A stretch of 60,046 nucleotides of DNA, taken from Puniceicoccus vermicola (GTDB lineage: Bacteria; Verrucomicrobiota; Verrucomicrobiia; Opitutales; Puniceicoccaceae). Location: assembly GCF_014230055.1 (NCBI RefSeq), contig NZ_JACHVA010000132.1, positions 1 to 60,046 of the forward strand, given 5' to 3'. The notes under the pieces are model-generated. The model worked only from the letters and a program-made list of their open reading frames with translations, was not told the origin of the DNA and made no database searches. This document shows, piece after piece, positions 2,267 to 60,046 of the stretch. The translations under genes and the position numbers were made by a program. Position 1 is the stretch's first letter, and the number at the start of each line of letters is the position of its first letter.

Positions 2267-2267
2267 T

Positions 2268-2798: not shown

Positions 2799-2810
2799 TT
2801 CATTTCTTTT

Positions 2811-2896: not shown

Positions 2897-2913
2897 CCAA
2901 ATTGGAATATGGG

Positions 2914-6400: not shown

Positions 6401-6447
6401 TGGATTCGAAATCGCCAAGAAACGGCTCTCGCCGTTCCTCTCCGGTT

Positions 6448-7548: not shown

Positions 7549-9713
<2,165 letters not shown>

Positions 9714-9762
9714 GATTTTATCCTAAAAGTATTGATTCTGTTACTGAGTAGATCCCGGCGTG

Positions 9763-11877: not shown

Positions 11878-12015
11878 GGCTTGTGGTATAAATAAGCTAT
11901 ACTTACGCAATAGAGGGCAAGATCACGCTTTTGGTCAATTAATTTTTTTTATCAAAATTACAGTTTGACTTTAGATTCTCTAATCCTAAAACCGTATTCG
12001 AACCTACTAAAAATC
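11878..12015. promoter_or_regulatory. AT-rich divergent promoter region between mutA and mce
   Basis: This 138-bp AT-rich spacer separates the two opposing operons of the propionate module and must hold both promoters. On the plus strand TTGACT (about 11967) could be a -35 with TAATCC/TAAAAC as a weak -10. On the minus strand TATAGCTTATTTATA just before mutA contains -10-like hexamers. No operator-like palindrome is evident. Confidence 0.4.
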
Positions 12016-12420
12016 ATGATTCAAAAAATCGATCATCTCGGAATTGCAGTCCGCAGCCTCGCGGAAACGATCCCTTACTATGAGAAGGCTCTTGGCCTCC
12101 ACTGCCACGGAACCGAAGAAGTAGAGTCCCAAGGAGTAAAAACTGCTTTTTTTGAAGCTGGAGACGTTCATATTGAACTTTTGGAACCGACGAATCCGGA
12201 AAGCCCGATTGCCAAGTTCCTCGATAAAAATGGAGAAGGAATCCATCATATAGCGTTTGCGACCGATGACATCAAGGGGCAACTGACCAAGGCATCCGAC
12301 GAAGGAATTCGCCTCATCAATCAGGAACCATTTGAAGGAGCCGCCAATAAGATGGTAGCCTTCCTCCATCCCAAGAGCACCCACGGAGTTCTCACCGAAC
12401 TTTGCATGCCCAAGGAATAG
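12016..12420 (+). CDS. mce: Methylmalonyl-CoA epimerase
   Basis: This 134-aa vicinal-oxygen-chelate enzyme interconverts the (S) and (R) forms of methylmalonyl-CoA, joining the mutase to the decarboxylase. The start MIQKIDHLGIAV supplies the metal-binding His of the first beta-alpha module (KIDHLGIAV); HIELLEP, GIHHIAFATDDI and GVLTELC give the other conserved positions, including the second His and the C-terminal Glu. ATG 12016 is chosen because upstream residues do not resemble the family. It begins the plus-strand operon running to the CoA-transferase. Confidence 0.95.
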   Translation: MIQKIDHLGIAVRSLAETIPYYEKALGLHCHGTEEVESQGVKTAFFEAGDVHIELLEPTNPESPIAKFLDKNGEGIHHIAFATDDIKGQLTKASDEGIRLINQEPFEGAANKMVAFLHPKSTHGVLTELCMPKE

Positions 12421-12497
12421 TTCCCACACCACAACATTTCACCCTCGAGAAAGACTGAACGAGATCACGATCGGACAACCACTGCCCTCACCCAACC

Positions 12498-14051
12498 ATG
12501 GCTATTGATCCTAAATTACTTGAAGAACTAAAGAATCGCCGCGAAAAGGCCCGCAAGGCCGGCGGAGAGGCGAAACTGGAAAAACGCAAGGCCAAGGGCC
12601 TTCTATCCGCTCGCGAGCGGCTGGAACGCTTCTTCGAACCCGGCACCTTCCAGGAGTTCAGCATGCACGCTTCGCACCAGTGCACCAACTTCGGCATGGC
12701 GAAAGTCGAGCTGCCGACTGACGGTGTCATCACCGGCACCGGTTACGTCGATGGTCGCCCCGTAGCGGCTTACAGCCAAGACTTCACCGTTGGCGGAGGC
12801 GCACTCGGAAGCATCCATGCCAAGAAAATCTGCGACCTGATGGAATTCGCCCACGAAAACGGGATGCCCGTGGTCGGGGTGAACGATTCCGGCGGAGCCC
12901 GCATTCAGGAAGGAGTCGACTCCCTCTCCGGCTACGGAAAAGTCTTCTTCAAGAACGTCTATCTCTCTGGAGTGGTCCCGCAAGTCGCCGTCATCGCCGG
13001 CCCCTGTGCCGGAGGCGCCGCTTATTCGCCAGCCCTGACGGACTTCCTGATCATGACCCGCGAGAACGCCAACATGTTCATCTGCGGACCGGGAGTGATC
13101 CAATCCGCTACTGGGGAAAAGGCCTCGCTGGATCAATTCGCCACCGCCGCAGCGCACGCTTCGGTCAGCGGAAACATCCACCTGATCGCCGACGATGACG
13201 GACACGCGATGGACCTCGCAGGCGAGCTCCTCAGCTACCTCCCCTCCAACAACTTGCAGGATCCTCCCCACGAGCCGACCGAACAGGTCAGCCAAGGCAA
13301 GGATCCCGGCATGAATGACCTCGTCCCCGGAGACTCCAAGACTCCGTTCGACGTTCACGAAGTCATCCAGCGCCTCGTCGACGATGCTAACTACTTCGAA
13401 ATCATGCCCGATTTCGCCCGAAGCCTCGTCACCTGCTTTGCCCGGATCGACGGGATCGTCGTCGGCATCATCGCCAATCAGCCGATGGTGAAAGCCGGAA
13501 CGCTCGACATCGATTCTTCCGATAAAGGCGCCCGCTTCATCCGCACCTGCAACATTTACAACATCCCGCTCGTCAACTTGGTCGACGTTCCCGGCTTCAT
13601 GCCCGGTCTTGCCCAAGAGCGCGGCGGCATTATCCGCCACGGCGCGAAGTTGCTCTTTGCCTACGCGGCTTCGACGGTGCCGAAGATCACCTTGATCATG
13701 CGGAAAGCCTATGGCGGTGCCTACCTCGCGATGTGCAGCTCGGACCTCGGCGCCGACCAGGTCTTCGCTTGGCCCACCGCTGAAATCGCGGTCATGGGTG
13801 CGGAAGGCGCAGTGAAGGTGCTCTACCGCAAGGAGTTGGAAAAGGCCGAAGATCCGAAGGCCCGCGAAGAAGAACTCCGCGCCGAATACCGCGACAAGTT
13901 CGCCTCTCCTTACCAAGCCGCCGAGAAGGCAATGATCACCGACGTAATCGAGCCGTCCGAAAGCCGGGCCGTCATTTCGCTCGCACTGCGGAACACACTC
14001 AACAAACGGGATAGCCGTCCACCGAAGAAGCACGGGAACATCCCTCTCTGA
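12498..14051 (+). CDS. mmdA: Methylmalonyl-CoA decarboxylase alpha subunit (carboxyltransferase)
   Basis: This 517-aa crotonase-fold carboxyltransferase moves the carboxyl group between methylmalonyl-CoA and biotin. The two CoA-binding halves show NDSGGARIQEGVDSLSGYG and GPCAGGAAYSPALTDF in the N-half, and VDVPGFMPGLAQERGGIIRHGAK and KAYGGAYLAM in the C-half. The same fold serves propionyl-CoA carboxylase beta, but no biotin carboxylase gene is present and the genes for OadG-like, carrier and sodium-pump subunits follow, which favours the sodium-pumping decarboxylase. Confidence 0.93.
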   Translation: MAIDPKLLEELKNRREKARKAGGEAKLEKRKAKGLLSARERLERFFEPGTFQEFSMHASHQCTNFGMAKVELPTDGVITGTGYVDGRPVAAYSQDFTVGGGALGSIHAKKICDLMEFAHENGMPVVGVNDSGGARIQEGVDSLSGYGKVFFKNVYLSGVVPQVAVIAGPCAGGAAYSPALTDFLIMTRENANMFICGPGVIQSATGEKASLDQFATAAAHASVSGNIHLIADDDGHAMDLAGELLSYLPSNNLQDPPHEPTEQVSQGKDPGMNDLVPGDSKTPFDVHEVIQRLVDDANYFEIMPDFARSLVTCFARIDGIVVGIIANQPMVKAGTLDIDSSDKGARFIRTCNIYNIPLVNLVDVPGFMPGLAQERGGIIRHGAKLLFAYAASTVPKITLIMRKAYGGAYLAMCSSDLGADQVFAWPTAEIAVMGAEGAVKVLYRKELEKAEDPKAREEELRAEYRDKFASPYQAAEKAMITDVIEPSESRAVISLALRNTLNKRDSRPPKKHGNIPL

Positions 14052-14081
14052 TTGTTTTCTCCGCAAACCGCATAACGAACC

Positions 14082-14471
14082 ATGCCCATGCAACTACCGA
14101 TTCCCATCGCGGCCGCCGAATCGCACACAGCGATCAACCTCGTGGTCACTGGATTTCTCTTCGTCGTCGTCGTCCTCATGATCCTCGCCGGGATCACATG
14201 GCTGGGAGGCAAATATTTTGCCGCCCGCGACGCCGCGAAACCGCCGTTGGCCAAGAAAACCGTGAAGCCGCCCAAAACGGCGGCCCCAGCGGCTACTGCC
14301 AGCGCGGCTCCATCATCCAACGAGGGCGAACACCTGACCGCGGTCATCACCGCAGCGATTCACGTGGCCCTTCAGGACCAACGCTTCCGCGTCCGCTCAA
14401 TCCGGCGCATGGCACCCGGTTGGGCCCAGGAAGGTCGACGCCAGATCTTCTCTTCGCACCGCCTTCGTTAA
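14082..14471 (+). CDS. OadG-like small membrane subunit of the decarboxylase
   Basis: This 129-aa protein has one membrane helix (about residues 18-42, INLVVTGFLFVVVVLMILAG), an Ala/Pro/Lys-rich linker, and a C-terminal block GEHLTAVITAAIHVAL...RVRSIRR...GWAQEGRRQIFSSHRLR. That layout matches the gamma/delta subunits (OadG/MmdD type), which anchor the carboxyltransferase to the membrane beta subunit and help assembly. It sits 30 bp after mmdA and 200 bp before the biotin carrier gene. Confidence 0.85.
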   Translation: MPMQLPIPIAAAESHTAINLVVTGFLFVVVVLMILAGITWLGGKYFAARDAAKPPLAKKTVKPPKTAAPAATASAAPSSNEGEHLTAVITAAIHVALQDQRFRVRSIRRMAPGWAQEGRRQIFSSHRLR

Positions 14472-14671
14472 AGAAAGAGCGTTACTGGATAGAACCCATT
14501 CTCTCCACTGACCGATAGAGTTGCGCATCATCCCCCCCCGACAACCGGGGGAATGATCCCGGAACTGCGATCTGCCAACATCGCCCATCGGTTTTCGGCC
14601 TCACGGCCGCTTCTCCGGAAGCTTACAAACAAAATTACAAATCCAACTAGAATTACCAAAAGAAGAATATC

Positions 14672-15058
14672 ATGAAGAAACTCCGAGTCACTGTTGACGG
14701 CAAAAGCTACGAGGTTGAGGTCGAGATCCTCGAAGAAATCGGTGGAGCCAGCTCCGCACCAGCCGCTGCCCGTCCCGCACGTCCTGCAGCCGCCGCGGCG
14801 GCTGCCCCGGCTCCCGCTGCAGCGGCACCGAAGCCCATCGCTGGTGATGGTGAAGTGCCCAGCCCGCTTTCCGCGGTCGTGGTATCTGTCGAGGTCAAGC
14901 CCGGCGACCAAGTCAACGAAGGCGATCAGCTCATCACGCTGGAAGCCATGAAGATGAACACGCTCGTCACGGCTCCGGCTTCCGGCACGGTCGGCGAGAT
15001 CCTCGTCGGTGCTGGTGACGCCGTGGAAGAGGGCCAGGCTCTCCTGAAACTCTCCTAA
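14672..15058 (+). CDS. mmdC: Biotin carboxyl carrier subunit of the decarboxylase
   Basis: This 128-aa protein carries biotin on K94 in EAMKMNT, within a C-terminal biotinyl domain. An Ala/Pro linker (about 27-57) forms the flexible hinge and the N-terminal strand MKKLRVTVDGKSYEVEVE is typical of MmdC/OadA carrier ends. The carrier moves carboxyl groups from the alpha to the beta subunit. It lies between the OadG-like and beta-subunit genes in the same operon. Confidence 0.95.
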   Translation: MKKLRVTVDGKSYEVEVEILEEIGGASSAPAAARPARPAAAAAAAPAPAAAAPKPIAGDGEVPSPLSAVVVSVEVKPGDQVNEGDQLITLEAMKMNTLVTAPASGTVGEILVGAGDAVEEGQALLKLS

Positions 15059-15107
15059 TATTCCGTCACCCATCTCCCATTTCTGAAACCGCTCTCCTCC
15101 CCTGTTC

Positions 15108-16259
15108 ATGGACACGATTCAACAACTGTTTTCTGAGACCGGGTTCAACCACCTGAATTGGCAGATGCTCCTCATGTGGGGCATCATCGGCGTCATTTTT
15201 TATCTCGCCATTGCCAAGGGTTTTGAACCCCTTCTCCTCGTTCCTATCGGATTTGGCGCCTTGCTCGTCAACCTCCCCGACACCGGACTGCTGAATGCGC
15301 CGGTCTTCGGCCCCGACGGGACGATGGAGTCGGCGGGCGGTCTCTTGCACTACTTCTATGAGGGGATCCACATCGAGCTGTTCCCGCCGCTGATCTTCCT
15401 CGGCGTCGGGGCCTTGACGGACTTTGGTCCACTCATTGCCAACCCGAAGACCCTACTCCTCGGCGCGGCGGCCCAGTTCGGCATTTTTGCCACCTTCTTT
15501 GGTGCGATCGCTCTGGGATTCTCCTACACGGAGGCCGCTTCGATCGGGATCATCGGGGGAGCTGATGGACCGACGTCGATCTACCTGACCAGCAAGTTGG
15601 CCCCACCTCTCCTCGGAGCCGTGGCCGTAGCCGCCTACAGCTACATGGCGCTGGTGCCAGTGATCCAACCGCCAATCATGCGCCTGCTCACTAGCAAGGA
15701 AGAGCGCAAGATCCGTATGGTGCGTCTCCGTCCGGTCGGCAAGCTTGAGAAGATCCTCTTCGCCCTCGTCGTCGCCATCTTCTGCATTCTCGTGGTGCCC
15801 AGCTCTGCTCCCCTGATCGGGATGCTGATGCTCGGTAACTTCTTCCGTGAATGCGGCGTCACTGAGCGACTCGTCAAAGCGGCTCAGAACGAGATCATCA
15901 ACATCGTCACCATTTTCCTCGGCCTTGCCGTCGGGACGAAGATGAGCTACGACAAGTTTCTCGATCCGAACACGATGAAGATCCTTTTTCTCGGAGTCAT
16001 TGCCTTCATCATCGCCACCGCTTCCGGGGTTCTCATGGCTAAGTTCATGAATCTCTTCCTCCGCAAGGATAAGATCAATCCCCTCATCGGATCCGCCGGT
16101 GTCAGCGCCGTGCCGATGGCGGCCCGCGTCTCGCAGGTCGAAGGGCAAAAGGCTGATCCGAGCAACTTCCTTCTCATGCACGCCATGGGACCCAATGTCG
16201 CCGGGGTGATTGGCTCAGCCCTCGCCGCCGGATTCTTCCTGACCCTTCTGGGAGGATAA
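15108..16259 (+). CDS. mmdB: Sodium-pumping decarboxylase beta subunit (OadB/MmdB)
   Basis: This 383-aa multi-pass membrane protein decarboxylates carboxybiotin and couples it to sodium export. [20 protein letters not shown] holds the key aspartate (D153), corresponding to the sodium-site Asp of Klebsiella OadB. Later conserved parts include [18 protein letters not shown] and [16 protein letters not shown]. It ends in hydrophobic [12 protein letters not shown]. The presence of this subunit makes the decarboxylase complex an ion pump, not a biosynthetic carboxylase. Confidence 0.96.
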
Positions 16260-16281
16260 AACTCCCCCCATTTTGGGCGGT

Positions 16282-16321
16282 CCCTGCGGCGAATCCTTGA
16301 GTTTCTGATTCCGCCGCGGGG
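16282..16321 (+). terminator. Hairpin between mmdB and the CoA-transferase gene
   Basis: CCCTGCGGCGAATC pairs with GATTCCGCCGCGGGG across an 11-base loop. No T-run follows directly, so it may act as a partial terminator or mRNA stabiliser that sets CoA-transferase level relative to the upstream genes. Confidence 0.45.
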
Positions 16322-16387
16322 AAACCCCTCCGCCCACTTTCTATTTTTTCCAATCATTCCCATAGTAAATCCAACCGCCAGCGAACC

Positions 16388-17890
16388 ATGGCCCTGAAAG
16401 AACTAACCGCAGAAGAGGCAGCGAGCCTCATTTCACACGGAGATACGATCGGATTCAGCGGATTCACCCCCGCCGGAGCCGCCAAAGAAATCCCGACCGC
16501 AATTGCCGAAAAGGCGAAGAAAGAACACGAGGCTGGACGCCCTTTCAAGATCGGCGTCGTCACCGGCGCCTCGACCGGGCAGTCCCTCGACGGAGAGCTG
16601 GCCGAGGCCGATGCCGTCTCCTTCCGCACGCCGTACCAATCGAATAAATCCCTGCGTCAATCCATCAACGCCGGGAAGACGCACTTCTTCGACATGCACT
16701 TGTCGCAGTTGCCGCAAAACGTTCGCTACGGATTCCTCGGCAAGTTCTCTTACGCCATCGTCGAAGCCTGTGACGTCTCGGAAGACGGACACATCGTCCT
16801 CTCGACCTCGGTCGGAGCCTCTCCCACATTCTGCCAATACGCCGACAAGATTCTGGTCGAGCTCAACGAATTTCACCCGAAGGCATTGCGTGGTTTCCAC
16901 GACATCTACGAACCACTCGATCCGCCTCACCGCCGGGAGCTACCCGTATACTCCTGCTCGGACCGAGTCGGAACGGAAACAATCAAGGTAGCCCCGTCGA
17001 AGATTGCCGGAGTCGTCCGCACCAATCGCCCCGACGAGGTCGGTGGATTCAAGGAGGTCTGCCCCATCACCAGCAAGATCGGCGAAAATGTATCCAACTT
17101 CCTCGCCAGCGAACTGCGCAAGGGAGCCATCCCGAAGGATTTCCTCCCCATCCAAAGTGGGGTCGGCAATATTGCCAACGCCATTCTCGGGGCCTTGGGC
17201 CAAAACCCAGACATCCCCGCCTTCGAGATGTATTCGGAAGTCATTCAGGACTCCGTCATCTCGCTGATGGAAGAAGAGCGCATCCGCTTTGGTAGTGCCA
17301 CCTCCCTCACGCTGAGCCCGGAAGTTCTGGCCCGCGTGTACGATAATCTCGATTTCTTCCGCTCCAAGGTGCTCCTGCGCCCACAAGAGCTTTCCAACCA
17401 CCCGGAAATCGTTCGCCGGCTCGGCATCATCTCGATCAATACCGCAATCGAGACTGACATTTTCGGCAACGTGAACAGCACCCACGTCATGGGGAACAAC
17501 CTCATGAACGGTATCGGAGGCTCGGGTGATTTCACCCGCAATGCCTACCTCTCGGTCTTCACCTGCCCCTCCGTGGCCAAGGGAAGCAAGATCAGCACCA
17601 TTGTCCCGCTCGTGAGCCACATGGACCACAGCGAACACTCCGTGCAGGTCGTCATCACCGAGCAAGGCGTCGCCGACCTTCGCGGGAAAGATCCGGTCGA
17701 ACGGGCTCGCCTCATCGTCGAGAACTGCGCCCATCCAGAATACCGGGATCTCCTCCGAGGCTACTTCGACAGCGTTAAAGACGGGCACACACCGCAGACG
17801 CTCGATTGCGCCTTCGCTATGCACCAGAAATTCCTCAAAACCGGGGACATGCACGGCGTCGAGTGGGCACTCCCAGGCAGCCAGGCATAA
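16388..17890 (+). CDS. Acetyl-CoA hydrolase/transferase family CoA-transferase (succinate:propionyl-CoA or succinate:acetyl-CoA type)
   Basis: This 500-aa enzyme moves CoA between carboxylic acids. It has the class I fold: the N-domain includes GFSGFTPAGAAKEIP and VTGASTGQSLDGELA, and the C-domain has EMYSEVIQDS with the likely catalytic glutamate E284, then GGSGDFTRNAYLSVF and VVITEQGVADLRGK. At the end of the succinate/propionate operon its natural job is to pass CoA from propionyl-CoA to succinate, closing the cycle without ATP cost. Acetate could be an alternative substrate; sequence alone does not decide. Confidence 0.9.
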   Translation: MALKELTAEEAASLISHGDTIGFSGFTPAGAAKEIPTAIAEKAKKEHEAGRPFKIGVVTGASTGQSLDGELAEADAVSFRTPYQSNKSLRQSINAGKTHFFDMHLSQLPQNVRYGFLGKFSYAIVEACDVSEDGHIVLSTSVGASPTFCQYADKILVELNEFHPKALRGFHDIYEPLDPPHRRELPVYSCSDRVGTETIKVAPSKIAGVVRTNRPDEVGGFKEVCPITSKIGENVSNFLASELRKGAIPKDFLPIQSGVGNIANAILGALGQNPDIPAFEMYSEVIQDSVISLMEEERIRFGSATSLTLSPEVLARVYDNLDFFRSKVLLRPQELSNHPEIVRRLGIISINTAIETDIFGNVNSTHVMGNNLMNGIGGSGDFTRNAYLSVFTCPSVAKGSKISTIVPLVSHMDHSEHSVQVVITEQGVADLRGKDPVERARLIVENCAHPEYRDLLRGYFDSVKDGHTPQTLDCAFAMHQKFLKTGDMHGVEWALPGSQA

Positions 17891-24868: not shown

Positions 24869-26578
24869 CTACTGCAACGAAAGCTTGATCAGGCGCTGAT
24901 TACCCCAATCCACAAGAACAGCCCGGTTTCCGGCGGCATCGATCATTTGCGGTTCGCTCAGCGACGTTTCCAGGCCTTCGCTCTGAAATTCAGCCAACAG
25001 ATCCGCGGAACCGCCCTCGATTCGGAAACAGACAACGCGATTGTTTTCCGTATCACTCACCCAAAGAACCCCCTCGCTCTCAGTGATGTAGATCTTCCCC
25101 CCGAACTGATCCCCCTCCCAGGAGTTCCATCGGCTCACCGGACTGATCTTCGCCTCGCTCTCTTCGAAAACCACGATCTCCCCTGCGGAAGCGACGAGCA
25201 ACCGACCATCGACGGATCGCGCCAAGCTCGTGACCTCCGGCACTTCCTGCCCCAAATCGAGGTCAAAAGACGCATCCGTCTTCCGGAAACCTCCATTCGG
25301 ATTAAGGAGGAGTCGAACCGCGTCTCCCGCTTCATTGGCTACGATGGCCACATTCGGTCCATTCTCCTGGGCATAGACCACCATCCCGGTCGGATTCTCG
25401 GGCAATTCTTCAACCGTGCTCGATGTCTTCTTACTCTGTTCGTCGTAAGGCCGGTGCATCAACTTCGGAGTTCCCCGGTAAAGAAAGGGGAAGATGACCT
25501 GACCATTCTCCGAGAGGGCTCCCTGGACGGCCCGCCAATCGCGGGAGTTAAAAGACGTTTCCCCTTTTAAAATCGCGGAGGGACCGTCGGACCAGTTCCA
25601 AAATCCTGAGTAAAACCATACTCTGCCCCCGTCATCGAGAACAACCGTTCCCGGAAAGTGGATACTGCCGAGGCGGCGCTCCAAGAGAAAGGCCTGCTTT
25701 TCCTCATCGTACCGCAGCAGGTGAATCACCCCGATCGGGCCCACGGCCGCATAACGGTCTTCTCCCAAGTGAGCCATTCCGCGGGGGAGATAGAGCTCCC
25801 CATCCTCCGGGAGGCTTCCGATGAAGTATCCGGAGCTGCCCCCGTAAACGACCCCGGGCTCGGGAGTGTAGTCGAGGTTTCGGCGGGACAAAGTCATATG
25901 CCAACCGAACTCAAAAACGTAACCATTGACCACCTGATGCAAAGAGCCTAGCGGCGTGGGACGGATTTCCCGTTCTCTTTCCGCTTGATAGGACCAGGTG
26001 CCGCCGACCACGACCTCACCGTCCTCAAAAATGTCGACGGTGTTGATCCGGTCCCCTTCCGCGGCTTGGCCGATCTCCACAAACTCGTCGGAGGTCGGAT
26101 CATAAATTCCCACGACCTTCGCCGCAGTGACCAACCCGATCTTACCGTCCATGGCATTCAAAGAGATCTCTTCCACTCTCCGATCGACCTCTTGAGGCTC
26201 GGTTCCGGACGGGGCGGTAATGGGTAAGGTGAAGAGTCGATCCCCGGACCGCAAGACCACGAGATCTCCCACAACGACAAGGCTCCTCGATTCATGATGC
26301 TTCTTCTCACAGGGAAAATCGCCGAGCATCCGTCCGTCCGGAGAGAGGCGAAGAACATTCTGCGTTCCGCCAAAGCTCCAAAGCGCCCCGAGGCGATCAT
26401 ATCCCAGCCCAGAAGAACTGCCGTTCGTGCTGTATTCCGTTCCCTCGAAGTGAACGAGAGTCGAACCATCGTTCCCCGAATTTCCCAATACGCCATCCAA
26501 GCGAATCGAATCCCCGGAAGCCACACTCAGGCTCACGAGCAAGCCGACGACAAAAAGCATTAGATTTTTCGAATTCAT
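24869..26578 (-). CDS. Secreted beta-propeller (NHL/SMP-30-like) protein, copy A
   Basis: This 569-aa protein starts MNSKNLMLFVVGLLVSLSVASG, a signal peptide, and continues DSIRLDGVLGNSGNDGSTLVHFEG. The body is a run of propeller-type blades (YDRLGALWSFGGTQNVLRL, DDGGRVWFYSGFWNWSDG, SEGVLWVSDTENNRVVCF) and ends NRAVLVDWGNQRLIKLSL. It is clearly paralogous to the protein at 56953-58713. It lies 5 bp after the large lipoprotein gene, and the same gene order occurs in copy B, so the pair is a conserved unit. Function unknown; carbohydrate binding is an inference from the partner and the locus. Confidence 0.75.
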   Translation of the reverse strand: MNSKNLMLFVVGLLVSLSVASGDSIRLDGVLGNSGNDGSTLVHFEGTEYSTNGSSSGLGYDRLGALWSFGGTQNVLRLSPDGRMLGDFPCEKKHHESRSLVVVGDLVVLRSGDRLFTLPITAPSGTEPQEVDRRVEEISLNAMDGKIGLVTAAKVVGIYDPTSDEFVEIGQAAEGDRINTVDIFEDGEVVVGGTWSYQAEREREIRPTPLGSLHQVVNGYVFEFGWHMTLSRRNLDYTPEPGVVYGGSSGYFIGSLPEDGELYLPRGMAHLGEDRYAAVGPIGVIHLLRYDEEKQAFLLERRLGSIHFPGTVVLDDGGRVWFYSGFWNWSDGPSAILKGETSFNSRDWRAVQGALSENGQVIFPFLYRGTPKLMHRPYDEQSKKTSSTVEELPENPTGMVVYAQENGPNVAIVANEAGDAVRLLLNPNGGFRKTDASFDLDLGQEVPEVTSLARSVDGRLLVASAGEIVVFEESEAKISPVSRWNSWEGDQFGGKIYITESEGVLWVSDTENNRVVCFRIEGGSADLLAEFQSEGLETSLSEPQMIDAAGNRAVLVDWGNQRLIKLSLQ

Positions 26579-26583
26579 GATTC

Positions 26584-29500
26584 TTACTCCCAGTTCAGTT
26601 CGCCCCAAAGCGCGGGGTTGATCATGGTTTCACCCGGGACGTCGTTCACGAGTCCGGTTGCATCGTTACTCCAGTAGCTCCGAAGGACGTTGATGTTCCC
26701 TCCTTCGTCCCCGTAGATGACACCGAAGTCCCCGAGAAGGTTCGCCGAGGTTCCATCCGAAGGCAGGCCGAGTCCGGCCACAGGTATGCGTGCCTCGAGC
26801 ATATATCCCTGGCGATCCGTTTTCACGTCGACAGTAGCATCGTCGAGCACCTCGACTTGATCCACCAGAGCGGATCGCCACGGACTGCTGAAGGATACCG
26901 GATCGGTGGTCCCGGGAACACGGTAATCCAAGAGAATGACCACCGATTCTCCCTCAAACGGGGCGATCATCAGACGCTTGTCGCCGACAACAGGCTCCGA
27001 ACGCCGCCGAGGTGCCTCCGGGTCGGTCGAAAATTCAAAGACCACCACATCGCCGGTCTTGAAAAGAAGATTCCGGTCTTTTCCGTTGTTCACCCAAGGG
27101 CTGGGATCCTTGACCGAATAACGAAGCACCAGATCATCCCCCGAACGGACGGCCTCCACCTTCCCGTAAGGAAATCTCTCCGAAGCATCGCCCCACTCGG
27201 CCACCACTCTCAGTTGGCCGCTGGGGATGACCGCTTCGCGGATGACTTTCGTTTCCGCCTGTTCTTTTTCTAGGATCTTCTGCGCCGCTTTGACCTGCTC
27301 CGCCGAAACGGGCAATGAACCGCCCTGACGCTCGACTTCATCCAAGCCGTGAATTTCAAAAATCCGATAATCAGAGTGTCCGGACTGCAAAATGTAACGT
27401 CTGGACTCCTGATCCCGACCGAAGTACCCACCAAAGCACTCACCTCCGATTCGATATGCACTGGCATCACGAGAGAGTCGAACGTCCTGGAACATCTCAT
27501 CGAGATAGATTCCATCCGTGGTCATCACGAAAAAGCGCCCATGATTTCCGTTGATGACCGTCACGTCTCCCTTCTCATCCAGCGGGGCCATCCCCAGGTA
27601 AGATAAAGAACCCTGGAGCACGCCCGTTTCGGGCAAGGGAGCCTTGTGGGATCCATGCACTCCCGTCCAGTCATTGGGGAAGGTCCACTCGACCTCATTG
27701 TCGGCGCTCACCCCATACATGGGATGGCTGTTGAAAAGCATTCGCCCCTGACTGTCGACGAGGAAGGACTGTGAATTCCTCATATTCAACCCCGGAACCG
27801 CCTCGGCATTCATCACCGCTTCTTCGAAATTCCAATCCGGAGCCCCGGAGGGCAGCCAGCCGTTGAAAGTCAGGTTCCCAATCCCTTCTTCTCCGTCGGC
27901 CAAAGACACCCACAACTTCCAATCCAGAGTATTCTCAAAATGATACCCCCAAATCGATCCATGCATGCGATGGTCTGCATCTCCAGCGACCTGAACCTCT
28001 TCGAGCTGCGCCTGGTCATCACCATTGCGGTCGATCCACATGACGGAAAGTTCACGCCCGCCCTTCGAGGCCTTGGGAGCATTGCGGAAATTATCGTAAG
28101 GCCCCACGGGCTCGTCGAAATCGGCAAGAACTTCCTTCAACTGGGGATGCTGGGTAAAAACCTCGGGAACCCACCAGCGAGGACTCTCCGCCTCATAGCC
28201 ATGCAAGGCACCAAACATCGCCCAAAGCTTGAGACTTCCGTTCGGCATCATCTCGTAGAGACGCATCACGGCATCCTTGGATATGATGAACGTTCTCCCG
28301 TCCTGATGCAGATACCATGCGCTGAAGGGATAAAAACGATAGGTGGGCATTTCCGGCTTATGTCCGGAGAAGAGAACCGATTCGATCTCCACCTCTCCGG
28401 AATCAATGTCAATGTCCCAGGAAGCGCCACCGCCCAACCACTGGGAAATGTCGGCAGTGTCAAAGCCCGCACCGGAGGCGCCGTAGTGCGAAGGTCCAAA
28501 AAGTTCCTTCTCCAACTGCTGCTCGCCCGCGTTCCAAACACTGATTCTCTTCGGACGGAAATGATTCTCGGCCACCCAGAGCTGATTCGTGTCGTCCAAC
28601 GCTAAACCCGTTGGTAAACGGACAGCGTCCGGAACCCACGTTCCCTCTTCAACTCCTCCTCCAGTCTGACCGATTTGGCCAAGATCATTTCCCGCCAAGT
28701 CGTAAACCTTGATATTCTGATCGACGCCGTTGTCGGCGACATAGACGATTCCATCCGGGCTGAGAGCGAGAGCGGATCCTACGGGATGCAGCCCCTGCTC
28801 GGCGCGCTCTTCGCTCAAAGCCGGACGGAAGAGCGGCTGAAACTGTGGATCATTCACCGGGTCCTGAAAACTCACCAGATCCTGACCGCTGTAGGCCAGT
28901 AGTTGTTTCCCATCCGTCGCCAGAGCCCCCGGCTTCTCGATCGCCAAGGAGTCGACCTCCTCCCCGGTTTCCGGGTCCAAAGCGATGATCAGGTCATCGT
29001 CATAAAGGGAAACGTACAGCTTTCCTTTCAGGAAAACCGCACCGCGCAGATTGTGCACCACCGCATGGCGTCCCCCCGCAGAAGGATCCAAGCGATATTC
29101 GCGAACCACCTGATAGGTCTCCCGGCCATTCTGATAACGGTGCTCGCGACCGTCTTCCAAATTCCAGGCAATCAAGTTCAAAGAGGCGTACAGGTATTCG
29201 TTGCCGTCTTCATCCTTCCGAATTTTTGAATAACTCGGTGCTCCCTCGCACAAGGCGTAAAACCGCGAATCATCCATCGCCAAAAAGATCCTTCCGTGTC
29301 CCATGTGGGGGGAGGTGTTGGCATCGTTGAGTTTGTTCCCCTCCTGGTCAACGATGACGATGTTATTTCCCGACTCGGCGATCGGGCAACCAAGAGCAAT
29401 CAGTTCCCCGTTGGTGGCCGCTGCCTCGGGAGCGCTGTGATCCCCCAGCCAAAGACTGGTCGGACCGTCTTTCCATCCCGGGTTCCCCGGGTTGTAGTAA

Positions 29501-30300
29501 GACATCTTAAACTCCGGGGTGATCCCGGGGTGGCTCACCACTTCCCATTGATAATCTCCCGGCTCTACTAAATTTCCATTTTCGTCCAAACCGTCCCATA
29601 CCTCGGTATGTCTCCCCTGATCAAAAGTCTTTCCACTGACGAGATTGCGAACCCGCCTCCCATCGGCGTCGTTGATGACCACTGTCGCCACACCGTCCAT
29701 CGGCTGATCCCAAGAGATGCGAATCTGCTCCGCGAGATTCTCCATCAGCCGCTCATACTCTGCCAGACTGAAAGCCTTCCACCGATCCGGGTCGCTCCCC
29801 ACCGGGGCAAATGGAGCAATCCCCTCTTTCATCCAAAAATTTTCTGCCTGGGCTACCTCACCATTGGGATTGATCCACCGAACGGCAAAAGCCATCCGCA
29901 GAGCTTTCAGATCACTCCCCAGCGACTTCTTCGAAAGCGAAAACGCGAACTCCTTACCATTCTCCAGCGGCACTTGCTTCGCCTCACTCGGATTCAGTTT
30001 CACCGTTTTACCGGCGAAAGCTCCCAATTCGACCTCCGGGGAGGGCCAACCGCCCTTCATTGACTCGACCCGGACCCGCACCTCAATCGCATCGGAATCC
30101 GAAAGATCCAGAGCGTAAGCCACGGAGGGTGAGGTGCCGGACGAAACCTCGATCCACTCGAGAGAACCTTGCGTCGAGATCGATCCCTGATCGACCGTTT
30201 CCGCTTCACCGGCCATATCCTGCACACACCCGAAAACGGCGAAAAGACAAGTGAGGAGGAACAGAAGACGAGTTACTGGAAAACAATTACGAAGGGGCAT
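26584..30300 (-). CDS. Giant lipoprotein with FlgD-like Ig, beta-propeller and CBM9-like domains, copy A
   Basis: This 1238-aa protein starts with a hydrophobic segment and lipobox FAVFGC (Cys at 25), so it should be lipid-anchored. In order: an Ig/CBM-like region (about 40-150), a FlgD-like Ig domain (GVATVVINDADGRRVRNLVSGKT...WDGLDENGNLV..GDYQW, about 208-255), a long propeller region (about 290-990; ALSPDGIVYVADNG, GLALDDTNQLWVAENHF), and a C-terminal CBM9/DOMON-like domain (about 1070-1238; GDLVLRYSVKD-type start, YMLEARIPVAGLGL, GDFGVIYGDEGGNINVLRSYWSN). No catalytic motif seen. A second, broken copy sits at 58703-59268. A carbohydrate-sensing or binding role at the envelope is inference. 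Confidence 0.7.
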   Translation of the reverse strand: MPLRNCFPVTRLLFLLTCLFAVFGCVQDMAGEAETVDQGSISTQGSLEWIEVSSGTSPSVAYALDLSDSDAIEVRVRVESMKGGWPSPEVELGAFAGKTVKLNPSEAKQVPLENGKEFAFSLSKKSLGSDLKALRMAFAVRWINPNGEVAQAENFWMKEGIAPFAPVGSDPDRWKAFSLAEYERLMENLAEQIRISWDQPMDGVATVVINDADGRRVRNLVSGKTFDQGRHTEVWDGLDENGNLVEPGDYQWEVVSHPGITPEFKMSYYNPGNPGWKDGPTSLWLGDHSAPEAAATNGELIALGCPIAESGNNIVIVDQEGNKLNDANTSPHMGHGRIFLAMDDSRFYALCEGAPSYSKIRKDEDGNEYLYASLNLIAWNLEDGREHRYQNGRETYQVVREYRLDPSAGGRHAVVHNLRGAVFLKGKLYVSLYDDDLIIALDPETGEEVDSLAIEKPGALATDGKQLLAYSGQDLVSFQDPVNDPQFQPLFRPALSEERAEQGLHPVGSALALSPDGIVYVADNGVDQNIKVYDLAGNDLGQIGQTGGGVEEGTWVPDAVRLPTGLALDDTNQLWVAENHFRPKRISVWNAGEQQLEKELFGPSHYGASGAGFDTADISQWLGGGASWDIDIDSGEVEIESVLFSGHKPEMPTYRFYPFSAWYLHQDGRTFIISKDAVMRLYEMMPNGSLKLWAMFGALHGYEAESPRWWVPEVFTQHPQLKEVLADFDEPVGPYDNFRNAPKASKGGRELSVMWIDRNGDDQAQLEEVQVAGDADHRMHGSIWGYHFENTLDWKLWVSLADGEEGIGNLTFNGWLPSGAPDWNFEEAVMNAEAVPGLNMRNSQSFLVDSQGRMLFNSHPMYGVSADNEVEWTFPNDWTGVHGSHKAPLPETGVLQGSLSYLGMAPLDEKGDVTVINGNHGRFFVMTTDGIYLDEMFQDVRLSRDASAYRIGGECFGGYFGRDQESRRYILQSGHSDYRIFEIHGLDEVERQGGSLPVSAEQVKAAQKILEKEQAETKVIREAVIPSGQLRVVAEWGDASERFPYGKVEAVRSGDDLVLRYSVKDPSPWVNNGKDRNLLFKTGDVVVFEFSTDPEAPRRRSEPVVGDKRLMIAPFEGESVVILLDYRVPGTTDPVSFSSPWRSALVDQVEVLDDATVDVKTDRQGYMLEARIPVAGLGLPSDGTSANLLGDFGVIYGDEGGNINVLRSYWSNDATGLVNDVPGETMINPALWGELNWE

Positions 30301-30792: not shown

Positions 30793-31707
30793 TCACGAGC
30801 CACTACTGAAGATTTGATCCCGGTAGGATCGAGGAGAAACGCCTACGTTGCGTTTAAACCAGGCGGAGAAATGCGAAAGCTGCAAAAAACCCAATTCCGA
30901 CGCGACCTCCTTCACCCGTTTCGCCGGAATCTCCAACGCCTGCCGAGCCTGCCGAATTCGCCGCTTCTCCCAATAAGCGTTTAATGAGTAGCCGAACTCC
31001 TGAGCGGCCAATCGATTCAATCGCCCCAGAGTCAATCCCGTCGAATGAACGATCTTCTCCTCGGGAAAATCCTCTCCGGGCATCATCGAGTCCAAGACTT
31101 GAAGCGCCGCCACCAACCTCGGGTCGAGATCCTTCGGGACGTGCATTTCAAAGCCTTCCCCCACCATGACCTTCGCAAGCTCGGTCAACCACCGAAACAA
31201 CTTCACCTGATAGTCCAGGAAAGTCAGGTAGTCGATCTTACTCCGCCAGAGGAAACTATCCCGAGGGTCTTTCCGGCCCTCCCGCCAGTTGACCTTCTGC
31301 ACCAAACGCAACAATGGCATCGCCAACTTTACCAATTGGGGAAACGGGTCCCCGTCGAGCACATACAAGGGTCCCCCCGAGAAAAGATGCGTCCCATCCG
31401 GCCACCCCTGCTGCACTCGCAACGAAAGCAGATGAACATCGTCCGAGAACGTCTGCTCAATATCCTTCCCATAGCACAAGAGCCATTGTCCGGCATTCGC
31501 CTCAATCTCATGCCCATCGGCGTTCATCCGTGCCCATCCACGGCGAAGATACCAGGCGCTGAACTCGGAAAATCGCTCCCCTTTCGTGTTCCCTTGGCCC
31601 TTGGGAATCGCGTCATCATAAATAAATAAAAGATCGGAACCCAGACTCCCCCAATCATGCAGATTCGCCTGAGGCCACTCTTTGCGGGGAAGTAATTTGG
31701 ATTTCAT
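30793..31707 (-). CDS. AraC-family transcriptional regulator
   Basis: This 304-aa protein has an N-terminal cupin-like sensing domain (RGWARMNADGHEIEANAGQWLLCYG) and a C-terminal double helix-turn-helix (about 205-300) ending ASELGFLQLSHFSAWFKRNVGVSPRSYR, the strongly conserved AraC signature. It probably senses a sugar and activates nearby genes; the propeller pair downstream and the oxidoreductase upstream are the natural candidates. Confidence 0.93.
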   Translation of the reverse strand: MKSKLLPRKEWPQANLHDWGSLGSDLLFIYDDAIPKGQGNTKGERFSEFSAWYLRRGWARMNADGHEIEANAGQWLLCYGKDIEQTFSDDVHLLSLRVQQGWPDGTHLFSGGPLYVLDGDPFPQLVKLAMPLLRLVQKVNWREGRKDPRDSFLWRSKIDYLTFLDYQVKLFRWLTELAKVMVGEGFEMHVPKDLDPRLVAALQVLDSMMPGEDFPEEKIVHSTGLTLGRLNRLAAQEFGYSLNAYWEKRRIRQARQALEIPAKRVKEVASELGFLQLSHFSAWFKRNVGVSPRSYRDQIFSSGS

Positions 31708-45193: not shown

Positions 45194-46444
45194 ATGCGAA
45201 ACCGAACTATTATTCTCCTTGCCTGCTGCGCTATTGGACTCCAGGCCTCCGTCGCTCAAACCACGACACAATCCGAAGATTCTGATCCATCCCTCCGAGA
45301 ATTCCACCAGAAAGCCTCATCCGGCGAACCCGTCGATGTTGTGTTTTTGGGCGGCTCGCTGACTTGGGGAGCCAATGCCAGTGATCCACAACTAACGAGC
45401 TACCGGGGACGGATGATGGAATGGCTCAGAGAACAGTATCCAGAAACGCCCATTCACTTCCACGACGCGGCGATCGGTGGCAGTGGATCCGACCTGGGCC
45501 TATTTCGAATCGACCGGGACGTGCTACCCTACGATCCAGACTTGGTTTTCCTCGATTTCACCGTGAATGATGGTCCAGAGGGAAAGGACGAAGAGAGACT
45601 ATCCACGTATGAAACACTCATGCGGGAAATCATCGAGAGTGATTCCGCCCTCATGCAGGTTCTCATGATGTTCAAATGGAACGTAAAGCCGGAGGGAACT
45701 CCCCTCCCCCCACGCCACCAAGCCCACATAAGACTCGGCGAAACGTACAATGTTCCTGTCGCGAACGTAATTCCCCACGTCAATGCTATCGTCAATGGTG
45801 GAGTGCCTATTGAAAAAGTCTGGCCGTTCGATGGGGCTCATCCTGACGACTTCGGCTACGAGCTCTTTTTTGAAGCGGTCCGTGACCGATTCCTCGAGGC
45901 CATTGATAATCCGGAAATGGTGGCGACGATCCCAGAAGAGGCAGTCTACGGAGACCGCTACGCACAACACCACCGGACAATTCTGAAAGACTCCGAAACC
46001 CTCCCGGAAGGATGGACAATCGAAAAAACCTATCGTACTTCGCTTTGGTTCGATGGTCTTTCCAGCCGCTGGATGACTGATGTGATATGTGCCTCCAAAG
46101 AAGCCGAATCCCAACCCCTAGAAGTCGAGTTTGAAGGGTCGCTGGTCGGATTCTTCGGAGAACGAAATGGTCTGACTCCAAACGTAAATATCTGGATTGA
46201 CGGCGAACCTGTTCCGTACCCGAAAGCCAAGGACGGAAGCACTTCCTGGCCCCTCAGTACCGCCCGCTTCGCGCCCCCCAAGAAAGGGAGCGGAAACCTC
46301 TTTATGTGGACACTCATTGCCGACGACCTTGATGATGGCCCGCACACGCTCAAGATTGAGCCTATCTGGAAAGGGGCTGATTCTGACTCTGAACTTCGCA
46401 TCGAGAGTGTCTGCAGTGCCGGAATGCTTAGGCTTCCAAAATGA
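45194..46444 (+). CDS. Secreted SGNH/GDSL-family hydrolase
   Basis: This 416-aa protein has a signal peptide (MRNRTIILLACCAIGLQASVAQ), then VVFLGGSLTWGANASDP with the putative nucleophile Ser (block I), FTVNDGPEG for the Asn block and WPFDGAHPDDFGY near block V. A C-terminal beta domain (LEVEFEGSLVGFFGERNG) follows. Likely a carbohydrate esterase. Its stop overlaps the start of the next gene by four bases (ATGA), and it begins the operon leading to GH130 and the sulfatase. Confidence 0.8.
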   Translation: MRNRTIILLACCAIGLQASVAQTTTQSEDSDPSLREFHQKASSGEPVDVVFLGGSLTWGANASDPQLTSYRGRMMEWLREQYPETPIHFHDAAIGGSGSDLGLFRIDRDVLPYDPDLVFLDFTVNDGPEGKDEERLSTYETLMREIIESDSALMQVLMMFKWNVKPEGTPLPPRHQAHIRLGETYNVPVANVIPHVNAIVNGGVPIEKVWPFDGAHPDDFGYELFFEAVRDRFLEAIDNPEMVATIPEEAVYGDRYAQHHRTILKDSETLPEGWTIEKTYRTSLWFDGLSSRWMTDVICASKEAESQPLEVEFEGSLVGFFGERNGLTPNVNIWIDGEPVPYPKAKDGSTSWPLSTARFAPPKKGSGNLFMWTLIADDLDDGPHTLKIEPIWKGADSDSELRIESVCSAGMLRLPK

Positions 46445-56952: not shown

Positions 56953-58713
56953 CTACTCCGACAACACCAGCTTCACGATGCGCTGATTGCCGGAGTCATA
57001 AACAACGGCCCGCCGCCCGTTCACGGCGATCACCTCCGGCGCGTCCAGCTCTTGAAAAGCATCGCCGGCAACATCGGTAGTGCCCACCCCCGCCAGCGGG
57101 ACCAATTGCCCCTCACTTATATCAAATACTCCGACTCGATTCCGATCCGTATCTGAAATCCAAATACGGTTTTCGTCCACATCCAGATAGAAGCGTTGTC
57201 CGAATGTCCGGCTTTCATCATCTCCCCAGCCTTTCCAGCGCCGAGTCTCCCGCCAGCCCTTTCCGTCGTAGGCGAGCAAGAGCAGTTCACCATCGGCAGC
57301 GACCCAGAGGGAATTCTTCGGCCCGGTGGCGACGGAATCGAGTCGCTTGATCGGCTTCGCGGTTTGGAAGGTTGCCCCCCCCATCTCTTCCCCTGGTCTG
57401 CCGTCCGTATTCACGGATAACAACCTGGCCGAACCGTCTGCTTTCGCGAGTAGAGCGACGTTGCGGTTATTTAATTTCAGAATCGCCATGGAGACATAAT
57501 CCTCCATCGGATCGTCCGTGGTATCCCGTCGTGCAGGGCCATCCAGTGAACCGCTAAACCCCATTCCCCGACCGCCCCGGAAAGGACCAAACGCCACCAG
57601 AGCGTCATTCTCGAGAACATCGGCGACGAATGATTTCTCCTCCTCCCCGCTCTTGACAGATACCGGAGCGCCCGCATGCGGGATGCCGTGTTCGAGAGGG
57701 GCATCGGACCCGTCGCTCCACGCCCACACTCCGCCGTGATACCAAACGTTTCCCGCACTATCCAGCGCGAGTGCCTTGCATCTTCGCACGGAACCGATAC
57801 GACGGATGATCTCAAATCGTAGAGCATCCGGCTGCCACTCGAGAAGATGAAGGATTCCGCTCCAGCCGGAAACGGCGTAAATATGTCCTCCCAAGTAGGC
57901 CATCCCCTCTCCTTTATTGATCTCGTAGTTGCCGGGCACGTAACCGATGAAGGAACCGGAGTTTCCACCCAGCACGACACCGGGTGCCATTTCCAGATCG
58001 GCATCGAATCGACGAATCGTTCCATGATAGCTGTGACCGAACCAGGCACCGTTGAGCCATTGAAACTTATCACCGGGCATTTCCACCTCGGCATCCGGAT
58101 CCTCAATATTCTTGTAGTTTAAATTCTGCGAGATGTAGATCTCTCCATCGCCGCCTGTTTCCACCGACCTCGGTGAGCTGTTCAACGTGATCACCGACTC
58201 AATCGTACCATCGGGGCGAAAACGAAAAATCTCGCTTCCCTCGCTGGCAATCCCCCACCCATCCTCGGTAGAACCGAAGGCGATGAGGTCCGCACGAATC
58301 GGGAGCTCTTCCAGCTCTGCACCATCATCGGCATCCATCGGCAGACGATAAAGACGGTTATCCCGATTGAGGACCAGTGAGTCCTCGATCCGGGTCATCT
58401 TATCCGAATTCGACGGTCTTCCCTTGAAATCAATGGGATACGTTCCAACCTGACGCCCATCCACCGTGTAGCGTTTGATCTCGAATTGACCGCCGCTGGA
58501 CCAAAGAGTTCCCGAATCCTCGTCATAGACGACTCCCATTCCTGAAGTCGGCTGAGCAGCGAAGCGGACCAATGTTTCACCCGCCTCGCCCGAGTTTCCC
58601 AGAACCCCGACCACGTCCACCGTCACCGCAGGAAGACTCAGGCTCAGCACGAGACCAGAAGCGAGGACGATCGGACGGCTCAACATTGAAAATATCTTGA
58701 GATTATTCTTCAT
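56953..58713 (-). CDS. Secreted beta-propeller (NHL/SMP-30-like) protein, copy B
   Basis: This 586-aa protein is a paralogue of the one at 24869-26578: signal peptide, then VDVVGVLGNSGEAGETLVRFAA against DGVLGNSGNDGSTLVHFEG, GVVLGGNSGSFIGYVPGNYEINKGEGMAYLGG against GVVYGGSSGYFIGSLPEDG, and the ending DSGNQRIVKLVL. ATG 58713 overlaps the end of the broken large gene by 11 bp. The same partner order as in copy A shows that the two genes were duplicated or acquired as a unit. Confidence 0.75.
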   Translation of the reverse strand: MKNNLKIFSMLSRPIVLASGLVLSLSLPAVTVDVVGVLGNSGEAGETLVRFAAQPTSGMGVVYDEDSGTLWSSGGQFEIKRYTVDGRQVGTYPIDFKGRPSNSDKMTRIEDSLVLNRDNRLYRLPMDADDGAELEELPIRADLIAFGSTEDGWGIASEGSEIFRFRPDGTIESVITLNSSPRSVETGGDGEIYISQNLNYKNIEDPDAEVEMPGDKFQWLNGAWFGHSYHGTIRRFDADLEMAPGVVLGGNSGSFIGYVPGNYEINKGEGMAYLGGHIYAVSGWSGILHLLEWQPDALRFEIIRRIGSVRRCKALALDSAGNVWYHGGVWAWSDGSDAPLEHGIPHAGAPVSVKSGEEEKSFVADVLENDALVAFGPFRGGRGMGFSGSLDGPARRDTTDDPMEDYVSMAILKLNNRNVALLAKADGSARLLSVNTDGRPGEEMGGATFQTAKPIKRLDSVATGPKNSLWVAADGELLLLAYDGKGWRETRRWKGWGDDESRTFGQRFYLDVDENRIWISDTDRNRVGVFDISEGQLVPLAGVGTTDVAGDAFQELDAPEVIAVNGRRAVVYDSGNQRIVKLVLSE

Positions 58714-59268
58714 CAGACTTCCCTCCGAACTGAATTTCGCTCCACAGCGAAGGCTGCAGCATGATTTCTCCCGGAACGTCATTGACCAGTCCCGTGGCTT
58801 GATTCGACCAGTAATTCCGGAAGATATTGATGGTGCCTGCCGCGTCTCCGTAAATGACCCCAAAATCGCCCCGGAGCGTCTGCCCCTCGACCGCATCCAG
58901 TCCCAAATCGGCCAGTGGGATCGCTACCTCCACCTCGTAACGTCGACTGTATTTCTGGACTGCGATCTCCGCACTGCTCAGGCGCTTCACTACGTCGACA
59001 CGTTCACTGCGCCAGGGGCTTTGAAAAAGAACCCCGTCGGCCTCTACAGCATCCGGAACACGGTGACGGTACAGCACCGCAACATCCCCTTCGGCACTGG
59101 GGGCAATGAAGAGACGGAGGTCTCCCTCAACTGCACCCTGCCGCTTCGGATTGGCTTCAGGATCGGTCTGCAATTGCAGGTCAATACCGTCACCGGTTTT
59201 GAAGAGCGACTGCCAATCGCTCCCCTGATTTCGCCAAGGTGATTCGTCGTCGACTACATAATAGAGAT
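58703..59268 (-). pseudogene. C-terminal remnant of the giant lipoprotein gene, copy B, cut by an IS
   Basis: The minus-strand frame from about 59268 reads SDLYYVVDDESPWRNQGSDW...LFKTGDG, which aligns with DLVLRYSVKDPSPWVNNGKDR...LFKTGDV of the 1238-aa protein, and continues to GDFGVIYGDAAGTINIFRNYW as in its C-terminal CBM9-like domain. Upstream the frame meets a stop within the IS end. Roughly the last 190 of 1238 residues remain here; the rest lies beyond the IS, outside the window, or is lost. Confidence 0.85.
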
Positions 59269-59270
59269 CA

Positions 59271-60046
59271 CTACTGTCCAGTTAGGAACTCGTTGAATGT
59301 CAATTGATTAGGTAATTGAGGTTCGTCAAAATTTGTGCAATAATCCATAAACAGCTGATGGATAGGTGTTTTCTGAAATACGTTGACGCTCAAAACTTGC
59401 AAAATCCGGCTAAGGTTTTCGCCGAATCCATGAATCTTATTGAGACAGGCCACCATGAGGTAAACGCAGATGGCGATCCAGATTTGGGTCTTCACCGCGT
59501 TCACGGAGGTGCCGTAGAACGCTTTGATTCTGAGGTTTTGCTTGATCCATTTGAAGAACAACTCGATGTGCCAGCGACTCTTATAGATGCGGGCGATCAT
59601 GATGGCAGGAAGACCGAAATGGTTGGTGATGAATACCAGACTCTTGCCTGTTTCGAGATCGACAAAGCGGATGCGTCTGAGTTTTTCGGGGTAGTCCCGT
59701 TTGCTCTTGGTAGTCTTCAAGCCGGCGCTCTGGTCGCAACGCAAGCCAATGGCTTTGTCGACCGGGCGGGACTCGCTGACGTAGAAAGCCATATTGCTCT
59801 TTGCACGGGTGACGAAGAACGCTCCGGCTTGATGGATGCGATAGAGCCGTGCGAAATCGACGTATCCACGATCCATGACATAGATGCTTCCCGACTCGAA
59901 AACGATTTGGTCGAGCACGTTCACGTCATGCACGCTACCGTCGGTAATGCTCATAAACACTGGTATGGAGCCTCTCAAGTCGATCATCGTGTGCAGCTTG
60001 ACTGCGGCTTTGGTCTGCCTGAAACGAGCCCACGGGAACATCGAAA
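59271..60046 (-). mobile_element. IS4-family transposase, 3' part, running off the window
   Basis: The 256 residues visible are the C-terminal part of a DDE transposase. They include the first Asp region (KLHTMIDLRGSIP), the second (MDRGYVDFA), and the YREK signature YKSRWHIELFFKWIKQNL with Y-x2-R-x3-E-x6-K, typical of IS4. The stop at 59271 lies within the element's tip, ACTGGACAGTAGTG on the minus strand. The N-terminus and the other inverted repeat are beyond the right edge. Codon use is AT-richer than the neighbouring genes. Confidence 0.92.

Follow-up and report, generated by a model that had tools for sequence, protein, structure and literature searches.

A two-protein propeller cassette of Puniceicoccus vermicola as a candidate exported glycan-capturing complex

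Introduction

Two large genes that stand back to back in the bacterium Puniceicoccus vermicola (Verrucomicrobiota; Puniceicoccaceae) raise the question of whether their products work together and, if so, on what. They lie in a stretch of 60,046 nucleotides (NCBI RefSeq assembly GCF_014230055.1, contig NZ_JACHVA010000132.1, positions 1 to 60,046 of the forward strand), referred to here as the window, and coordinates given with no contig or locus name are those of the window. The upstream gene encodes a giant exported protein, L, and the downstream gene a secreted beta-propeller protein, S. An earlier note, made from the letters of the window, had suggested that such a pair could be an undescribed glycan-binding or sensing complex. 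We conclude that L and S very probably constitute one functional unit, a claim that is well supported because the two are adjacent or fused in distantly related bacteria. It is further predicted, with a probability of about 0.5, that they are the two subunits of one exported glycan-capturing complex; glycan binding or sensing by the pair is at least plausible.

The gene pair of the window

26584..30300, minus strand: gene L1, giant exported protein of 1238 aa, type I (open reading frame, Pfam, model and tree)
24869..26578, minus strand: gene S1, secreted tandem beta-propeller of 569 aa, ATG at 26578 (open reading frame, model and fold matches)

The arrangement described earlier, a large protein followed by a secreted propeller at 24869-30300, is present: both open reading frames (ORFs) are on the minus strand, in the order L1 and then S1, and 5 nt separate the TAA of L1 from the ATG of S1. 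The FlgD-like Ig and propeller parts that had been read into L were also recovered, FlgD_ig (PF13860) at residues 197-256 of L1 with 37.5 bits (cut-off 27) and NHL (PF01436) with 23.8 bits for L1 as a whole protein, 23.6 for S1 and 22.9 for S2, a paralog of S1 elsewhere in the window (cut-off 20). NCBIfam returned zero families above cut-off for L and S, no catalytic glycoside hydrolase (GH), polysaccharide lyase (PL) or carbohydrate esterase (CE) match above cut-off was obtained for L, S or S2 in Pfam and NCBIfam together, and a histidine kinase domain was not found in L or S by the Pfam scan.

L had also been called a giant lipoprotein, but its status as a lipoprotein is weak. A lipobox follows the signal peptide with the pattern [LVI][ASTG][GA]C, and that of L1 is an atypical VFGC, with F at -2. 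A loose pattern scan flagged only three of 14 separate L proteins of the type that partners S (counting L042 and L095, which are one gene, once), namely VFGC in the window, AYGC at locus L043 and VVAC at locus L035, the last falling within a hydrophobic stretch. The others mostly have a plain signal-like N-terminus, as judged by pattern and by eye with no signal-peptide program.

Pairing of S with L across phyla

S1 used alone as a query of the contig collection found zero relatives, and a profile of three S sequences together with a pattern scan found 17 S loci. Their record labels are Planctomycetota, Verrucomicrobia, Lentisphaerae and Kiritimatiellae, three loci (L044-L046) having no phylum; many are metagenome-assembled genomes, whose labels can be wrong. 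L lies directly upstream of S at nine of the 17 (L031-L035, L040 and L042-L044, with L truncated by the contig start at L031 and L034). The two are joined in a single ORF with S first at five (L036 from Blastopirellula marina, L037, L038 from Rhodopirellula, L039 and L041), and in a single chain with L first at two (L046, and L047 across a frame break). S is thus adjacent or fused to L at 16/17 loci.

A survey of 337 genomes of the phylum gave a similar picture from the side of L, although the two sets overlap and are not independent (genomes G413, G310, G428 and G396 correspond to loci L043, L042/L095, L044 and L045). Counts per genome are lower bounds, since no more than two L and four S candidates were scored in each; of 69 L match rows, 24 were typed (14 type I and 10 type II), and none of the 45 untyped rows exceeds about 600 bits. 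Type I denotes the clade of L that partners S, and type II the other L clade. Twelve full-length type-I genes in eight genomes all have S on the same strand, with 32-301 bp between the model matches, and among typed type-I genes that could be assessed S is next door in 12 of 13. One further type-I L, in G398, runs into a contig end, while the S of that genome follows the C-terminal part of an L on the border of a different contig; this case is not among the 13.

The two types are clear in a tree of 24 L proteins, in which every L directly upstream of or fused to S belongs to a single clade of 16 rows (SH-aLRT 100), and the remaining eight rows form a second. Six of these eight share a gene array with a pair: for example, the order is type II, type I, S at L043 and on contig C143 of this genome (L016), and a type-II L directly follows S at L033 and L044, the latter being an L-L-S-L array. 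Because of these shared arrays type II may also be part of the system, possibly as a third partner.

Trees of S and L made from 19 pairs mirror one another, with a patristic correlation of 0.955 that was reached in 0 of 5000 permutations; these were short-search trees that omit L031, L041 (near-identical to L038), L045, L047 and the second copy in the window, and add L091-L094. Ten of 16 splits are shared and six differ. A clade common to both trees unites L033 (Verrucomicrobia), L035 (Planctomycetia) and L043 (Lentisphaerae). As such common clades cross phyla, the correlation would not reflect species history alone, and the cassette seems, from these trees, to have moved between phyla as a unit. 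The conserved pairing, for which the earlier note had named a lack of co-occurrence as a possible refutation, was strongly supported by the counts at both sets of loci, by the fusions and by the congruent trees.

Predicted structures and conserved features

The model of L1 residues 46-1238 has a predicted local distance difference test score (pLDDT) of 83.9 and a predicted template modelling score (pTM) of 0.81, and shows in order a beta-sandwich, an Ig domain, an NHL propeller, a second propeller, a helix and a C-terminal sandwich.

29830..30156, minus strand: N-terminal beta-sandwich of L1, approximately residues 49-157 (model secondary structure, boundaries approximate)
29497..29724, minus strand: FlgD-type Ig domain of L1, approximately residues 193-268 (PF13860 and model strands)
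28492..29463, minus strand: propeller 1 of L1, six-bladed NHL type, approximately residues 280-603 (VIA-align)
27307..28488, minus strand: propeller 2 of L1, approximately residues 605-998 (strand pattern and two-domain alignments)
27997..28038, minus strand: EF-hand-like loop WxDxNxDxxxxxxE (pattern in 22 of 23 aligned L proteins)
27478..27675, minus strand: strongly conserved polar stretch of propeller 2, with VHGSH..APLP, NGNHGR and TDGxYxDE (invariant or nearly invariant columns)
26587..27237, minus strand: C-terminal CBM9-like domain of L1, approximately residues 1022-1238 (CBM9_1 17.1 bits, below cut-off)

Propeller 1 aligns with the NHL propeller of TRIM2 (7b96_A) over 240 residues (VIA-align Z 25.1, root mean square deviation (rmsd) 2.8). 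Alignments with megalin span model residues 254-920 with an rmsd of 22, and the two domains therefore stand at another angle there. In type-I L proteins, 83 columns hold one polar or aromatic residue at 90% identity or more, and conserved columns are most closely packed in propeller 2 and the C-terminal domain; conserved positions in the model numbering include N831, H837, S839, H840, N874, H875, R877, D884, D889, E890 and E909. A sequence search for a solved relative of the C-terminal domain gave one chain only, at E 1.2.

The S1 model has a pLDDT of 84.5 and a pTM of 0.85. Tandem WD40 proteins lead the 50 best Foldseek rows, with TM-scores by query length of 0.26-0.57 and large rmsd, and six-bladed NHL propellers lead in VIA-align (best Z 24.9, rmsd 2.8, 249 residues aligned). 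Together with the strand count, these matches lead us to read S as a tandem propeller.

25817..25858, minus strand: most conserved segment of S1, PGVVxGGxSGxFxG, residues 241-254 (alignment of 18 S proteins)
26474..26494, minus strand: N-terminal GVLGNSG motif of S1 (alignment of S proteins)

Residues 248-255 of the model, which overlap the first of these segments, have a pLDDT below 50, and such a conserved segment would suit a loop that is ordered only by a partner or ligand. The VLGNSG start that had been pointed out for S recurs as [VI]LGNSG in S1 and both of its paralogs in the genome, whose mutual identities are 29-35%. An origin of S as a duplicate of L was considered and set aside: profile comparison aligned only 57 columns, and homology over the whole length was not shown.

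The carbohydrate link

A complex of the two proteins is argued for by their signal-like N-termini, back-to-back genes, fusions in both orders, matching trees and propeller folds. The glycan role is proposed because the family includes CBM9-like domains, one chain is fused to a marginal GH32-like stretch, and carbohydrate genes stand near several of the loci, though not all. The CBM9-like part described in the earlier note is seen in the window only below the CBM9_1 (PF06452) cut-off, the C-terminal domain scoring 17.1 bits against 23.4. Ten of 16 aligned C-terminal domains match CBM9_1 at E<=0.05. Three type-II relatives are above the cut-off (45.0, 34.0 and 56.2 bits) and two others are below it (15.6 and 17.3 bits); the 56.2-bit match, in the type-II L of L043, covers a C-terminal domain homologous to that of the window. 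Several type-II members also have an N-terminal CBM9_1 domain. A heme-binding EB_dh reading of the C-terminal domain is not favoured, since there is no His, Met or Lys among the invariant columns listed and its matches are weak. A shorter and more distant L paralog at L018:5678-8929 ends in PA14 (PF07691, 46.1 bits) in place of the CBM9-like domain.

The fusion at L046:1982-8524 is a chain of 2181 aa that joins an N-terminal GH32-N-like stretch, L and S. Searched apart, this stretch scores 23.3 bits against a cut-off of 22.1, and its best solved match is an exo-inulinase (E 0.005). Carbohydrate genes are found beside several cassettes: GH31, GH95 and a sulfatase in the window, GH2 and GH16 at L043, GH115 and an arabinofuranosidase at L047, a SASA esterase at L033, alginate lyase and a sulfatase at L038, GH43 at L091 and GH5 at L093.

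On this basis L could act as a scaffold in which the CBM9-like domain and the conserved face of propeller 2 hold the polysaccharide. S would dock on L and add a second sugar-facing surface through its invariant glycine-rich segment, and the complex might retain one particular glycan, on the cell surface or inside the periplasm, to be used by neighbouring hydrolases and sulfatases. The copies of this genome, which lie beside different sugar-type regulators (AraC, LacI and GntR families), may serve different glycans.

Several observations weigh against this proposal. Besides the low score of the window domain, EB_dh is matched weakly by three of the 16 C-terminal domains, and the GH32-like match of L046 drops to 21.9 bits, below cut-off, when the full protein is searched. 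Gene neighbourhoods are uneven: a carbohydrate-active enzyme (CAZyme) was not found among the two neighbours scanned at L094 or in the one scanned at L035 (which has a lectin-like domain), two neighbours at L036 include no clear CAZyme (a borderline pectate-lyase match stands beside stronger squalene-cyclase matches), a rhamnosidase C-terminal match at L044 falls just short of the cut-off, and by eye the genes flanking L042/L095 and L092 are of a general kind. Flanks were scanned selectively and with no background control, leaving out L031, L032, L034, L037, L040, L041, L042/L095 and L092. These phyla are CAZyme-rich according to a 2024 survey (PMC11131199), and proximity to a CAZyme is therefore weak evidence. 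The distribution also counts on this side, as S is rare: its three-protein profile finds only this genome among 223 of the order at E<=1e-10, where L-like proteins occur in five at E<=1e-20, and S is present in 11 of the 337 phylum genomes. The pairing has exceptions: L045 is a partial S on a 5-kb contig where no L is seen, G375 has a type-I L that lacks both the C-terminal domain and S, in G473 a type-II L precedes a divergent S, and at G428:C19 a divergent S-like gene stands alone. The G375 protein (L088:6476-9490) has an LSGC lipobox by eye and is followed by a 271-aa ORF with no Pfam match.

Alternative functions

It is possible, though doubtful, that L and S form an envelope assembly, adhesion or signalling complex that is unrelated to glycan feeding and has, for example, pilin-like partners. 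Pilin-type N-termini do stand beside the cassette at L043/L090, L093 and L094 (seen by eye, with one N_methyl match in Pfam), the combination of propellers and Ig resembles sensor ectodomains such as BT4673, which Foldseek ranks 19th for L, and the general-looking flanks of the two loci named above would suit such a role. Against this, sugars are indicated by the CBM9-like domains, the GH32-like fusion and the carbohydrate genes of several loci, and pilin-like genes are very numerous in these phyla. As an observation in itself, pilin-like (FTLIELLVV-type) or long exported proteins adjoin the giant L at L043/L090, L093 and L094 (three in tandem) and likewise at L016:15473-17998 and L018:10760-14566, the N-terminus at L018 being FALIIALAL-like by eye.

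An unlikely alternative makes L, alone or together with S, a member of an undescribed enzyme family, such as a propeller-type polysaccharide lyase, hydrolase or esterase, with the conserved polar cluster of propeller 2 as its active site and S completing that site. Pfam and NCBIfam bear out the claim that the pair has no known enzyme motif, but the strictly conserved His, Asn, Asp and Arg positions of propeller 2, and the concentration of the 83 polar or aromatic columns there and in the C-terminal domain, leave room for an enzyme. Peptidyl-hydroxyglycine lyase (Z 24.0) and alkaline phytase (Z 22.7) are also among the fold matches of S, a likeness of fold only. However, in sequence as well as in fold the best matches are propellers of the NHL or WD40 kind that lack catalysis, no catalytic family of Pfam or NCBIfam is above cut-off, and the type-II paralogs vary at the proposed site, L3 and L4 lacking the His of NGNHG and L4 and L5 lacking HGSH. 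No polysaccharide lyase is among the 50 fold matches listed for S or L, although propellers fill those lists and nothing is excluded by this.

That L and S are mere neighbours with no joint function is very improbable. Many genomes do contain type-II L proteins without S, but the two opposite orders of fusion, found in separate parts of the tree, and the congruence of the trees across phyla speak against it.

Relation to known systems

The glycan-capturing complex proposed here resembles several known systems in part. Both proteins share the fold of the NHL-repeat propellers (PF01436; TRIM2/3/71, Thin and the PknD ectodomain), at Z of about 25 over about 240-250 residues, but the cassette is an exported bacterial pair with FlgD-Ig and CBM9-like domains and, in the Pfam scan, carries neither a kinase nor another partner domain. 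CBM9_1 proteins are resembled by the C-terminal domains of the L family and, in several type-II members, by the N-terminal ones; the window domain differs in scoring below cut-off, and apart from the marginal GH32-like stretch of L046 the chain contains no recognised catalytic domain. Hybrid two-component sensors such as BT4673 (3ott/3va6) have a similarly large propeller ectodomain, which matches the L model in Foldseek, whereas L and S have no histidine kinase and are two separate exported subunits. The likeness to SusD and the surface glycan-binding lipoproteins of Bacteroidota would lie in the proposed job only, that of holding a glycan outside the cell. The SusD fold is helical, and the models of both L and S are strand-rich, with propeller matches and no such helical fold.

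A published description of the cassette was not found in the titles and abstract openings covered by a literature search, which fits the view of the earlier note that the unit is undescribed. The 2024 survey cited above states that polysaccharide import in Planctomycetota proceeds by an unknown mechanism and that 30-34% of hits in CAZyme clusters are unassigned (PMC11131199). The cassette offers a concrete two-protein candidate for glycan handling at the cell surface in these phyla, and the natural fusions provide single-chain versions for structural work. A far-reaching and rather improbable extension would be that Planctomycetota, Verrucomicrobiota and Lentisphaerota have a so far unrecognised system for the capture or import of polysaccharides. 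The phylum-crossing cassette would supply its outer part, with two propeller subunits doing a SusD-type job, or else the pair would be a two-subunit enzyme of a new family. As the cassette is rare, it cannot be a general answer to polysaccharide import.

Further copies in the genome and neighbouring genes

S was found at three places only in this genome, and the regulators beside the three copies are of AraC, LacI and GntR types.

30793..31707, minus strand: AraC-type regulator upstream of L1 (HTH_18, 65 bits)
56953..58713, minus strand: gene S2, intact paralog about 30% identical to S1 (ORF and comparison)
58703..59272, minus strand: L remnant of copy 2, last approximately 189 residues only (overlaps the S2 start by 11 nt)
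59271..60041, minus strand: DDE transposase ORF truncating the copy-2 L, at the contig end (PF01609, 104.5 bits)

The AraC-type gene may have a regulatory link to L1. The earlier note had counted the unit twice in the window, and this was rejected, because the L of copy 2 is truncated by the transposase and S2 alone is intact. The remnant is 50% identical to L1 residues 1059-1237. No piece of the missing part was found elsewhere in the assembly, and it is therefore deleted or unassembled. The transposase has copies of 100% identity at the ends of contigs C92 and C32, and relatives at 84% (one) and 63% (ten) elsewhere in the genome; these copies probably explain the assembly break at the end of the window. 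A second complete pair is found outside the window, on contig C143 at 1859-7337 (S at 1859-3616, L at 3636-7337), where another giant L (8425-12594) stands upstream on the same strand, and contigs C75 and C107 have additional L-like proteins.

Small secreted proteins lie near two of the three cassettes, at 54934-55806, which has a PEP-CTERM motif by Pfam, and at L016:7413-8228, with a similar-looking tail by eye only. The ORFs at 51754-52386 and 52376-53107, which overlap in different frames, appear to be one split sulfatase (PF00884 profile positions 1-183 and then 201-300), the result of a frameshift or an assembly error. A 1402-aa ORF at 46441-50649 has a weak heparinase II/III-like match only (15.6 bits, cut-off 24) and adjoins a mannobiose-phosphorylase-like gene. 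Further away, a cluster at 7545-17890 contains methylmalonyl-CoA mutase, carboxyltransferase, the beta subunit of a sodium-pumping decarboxylase and acetyl-CoA hydrolase/transferase, which suggests a propionate/succinate pathway.

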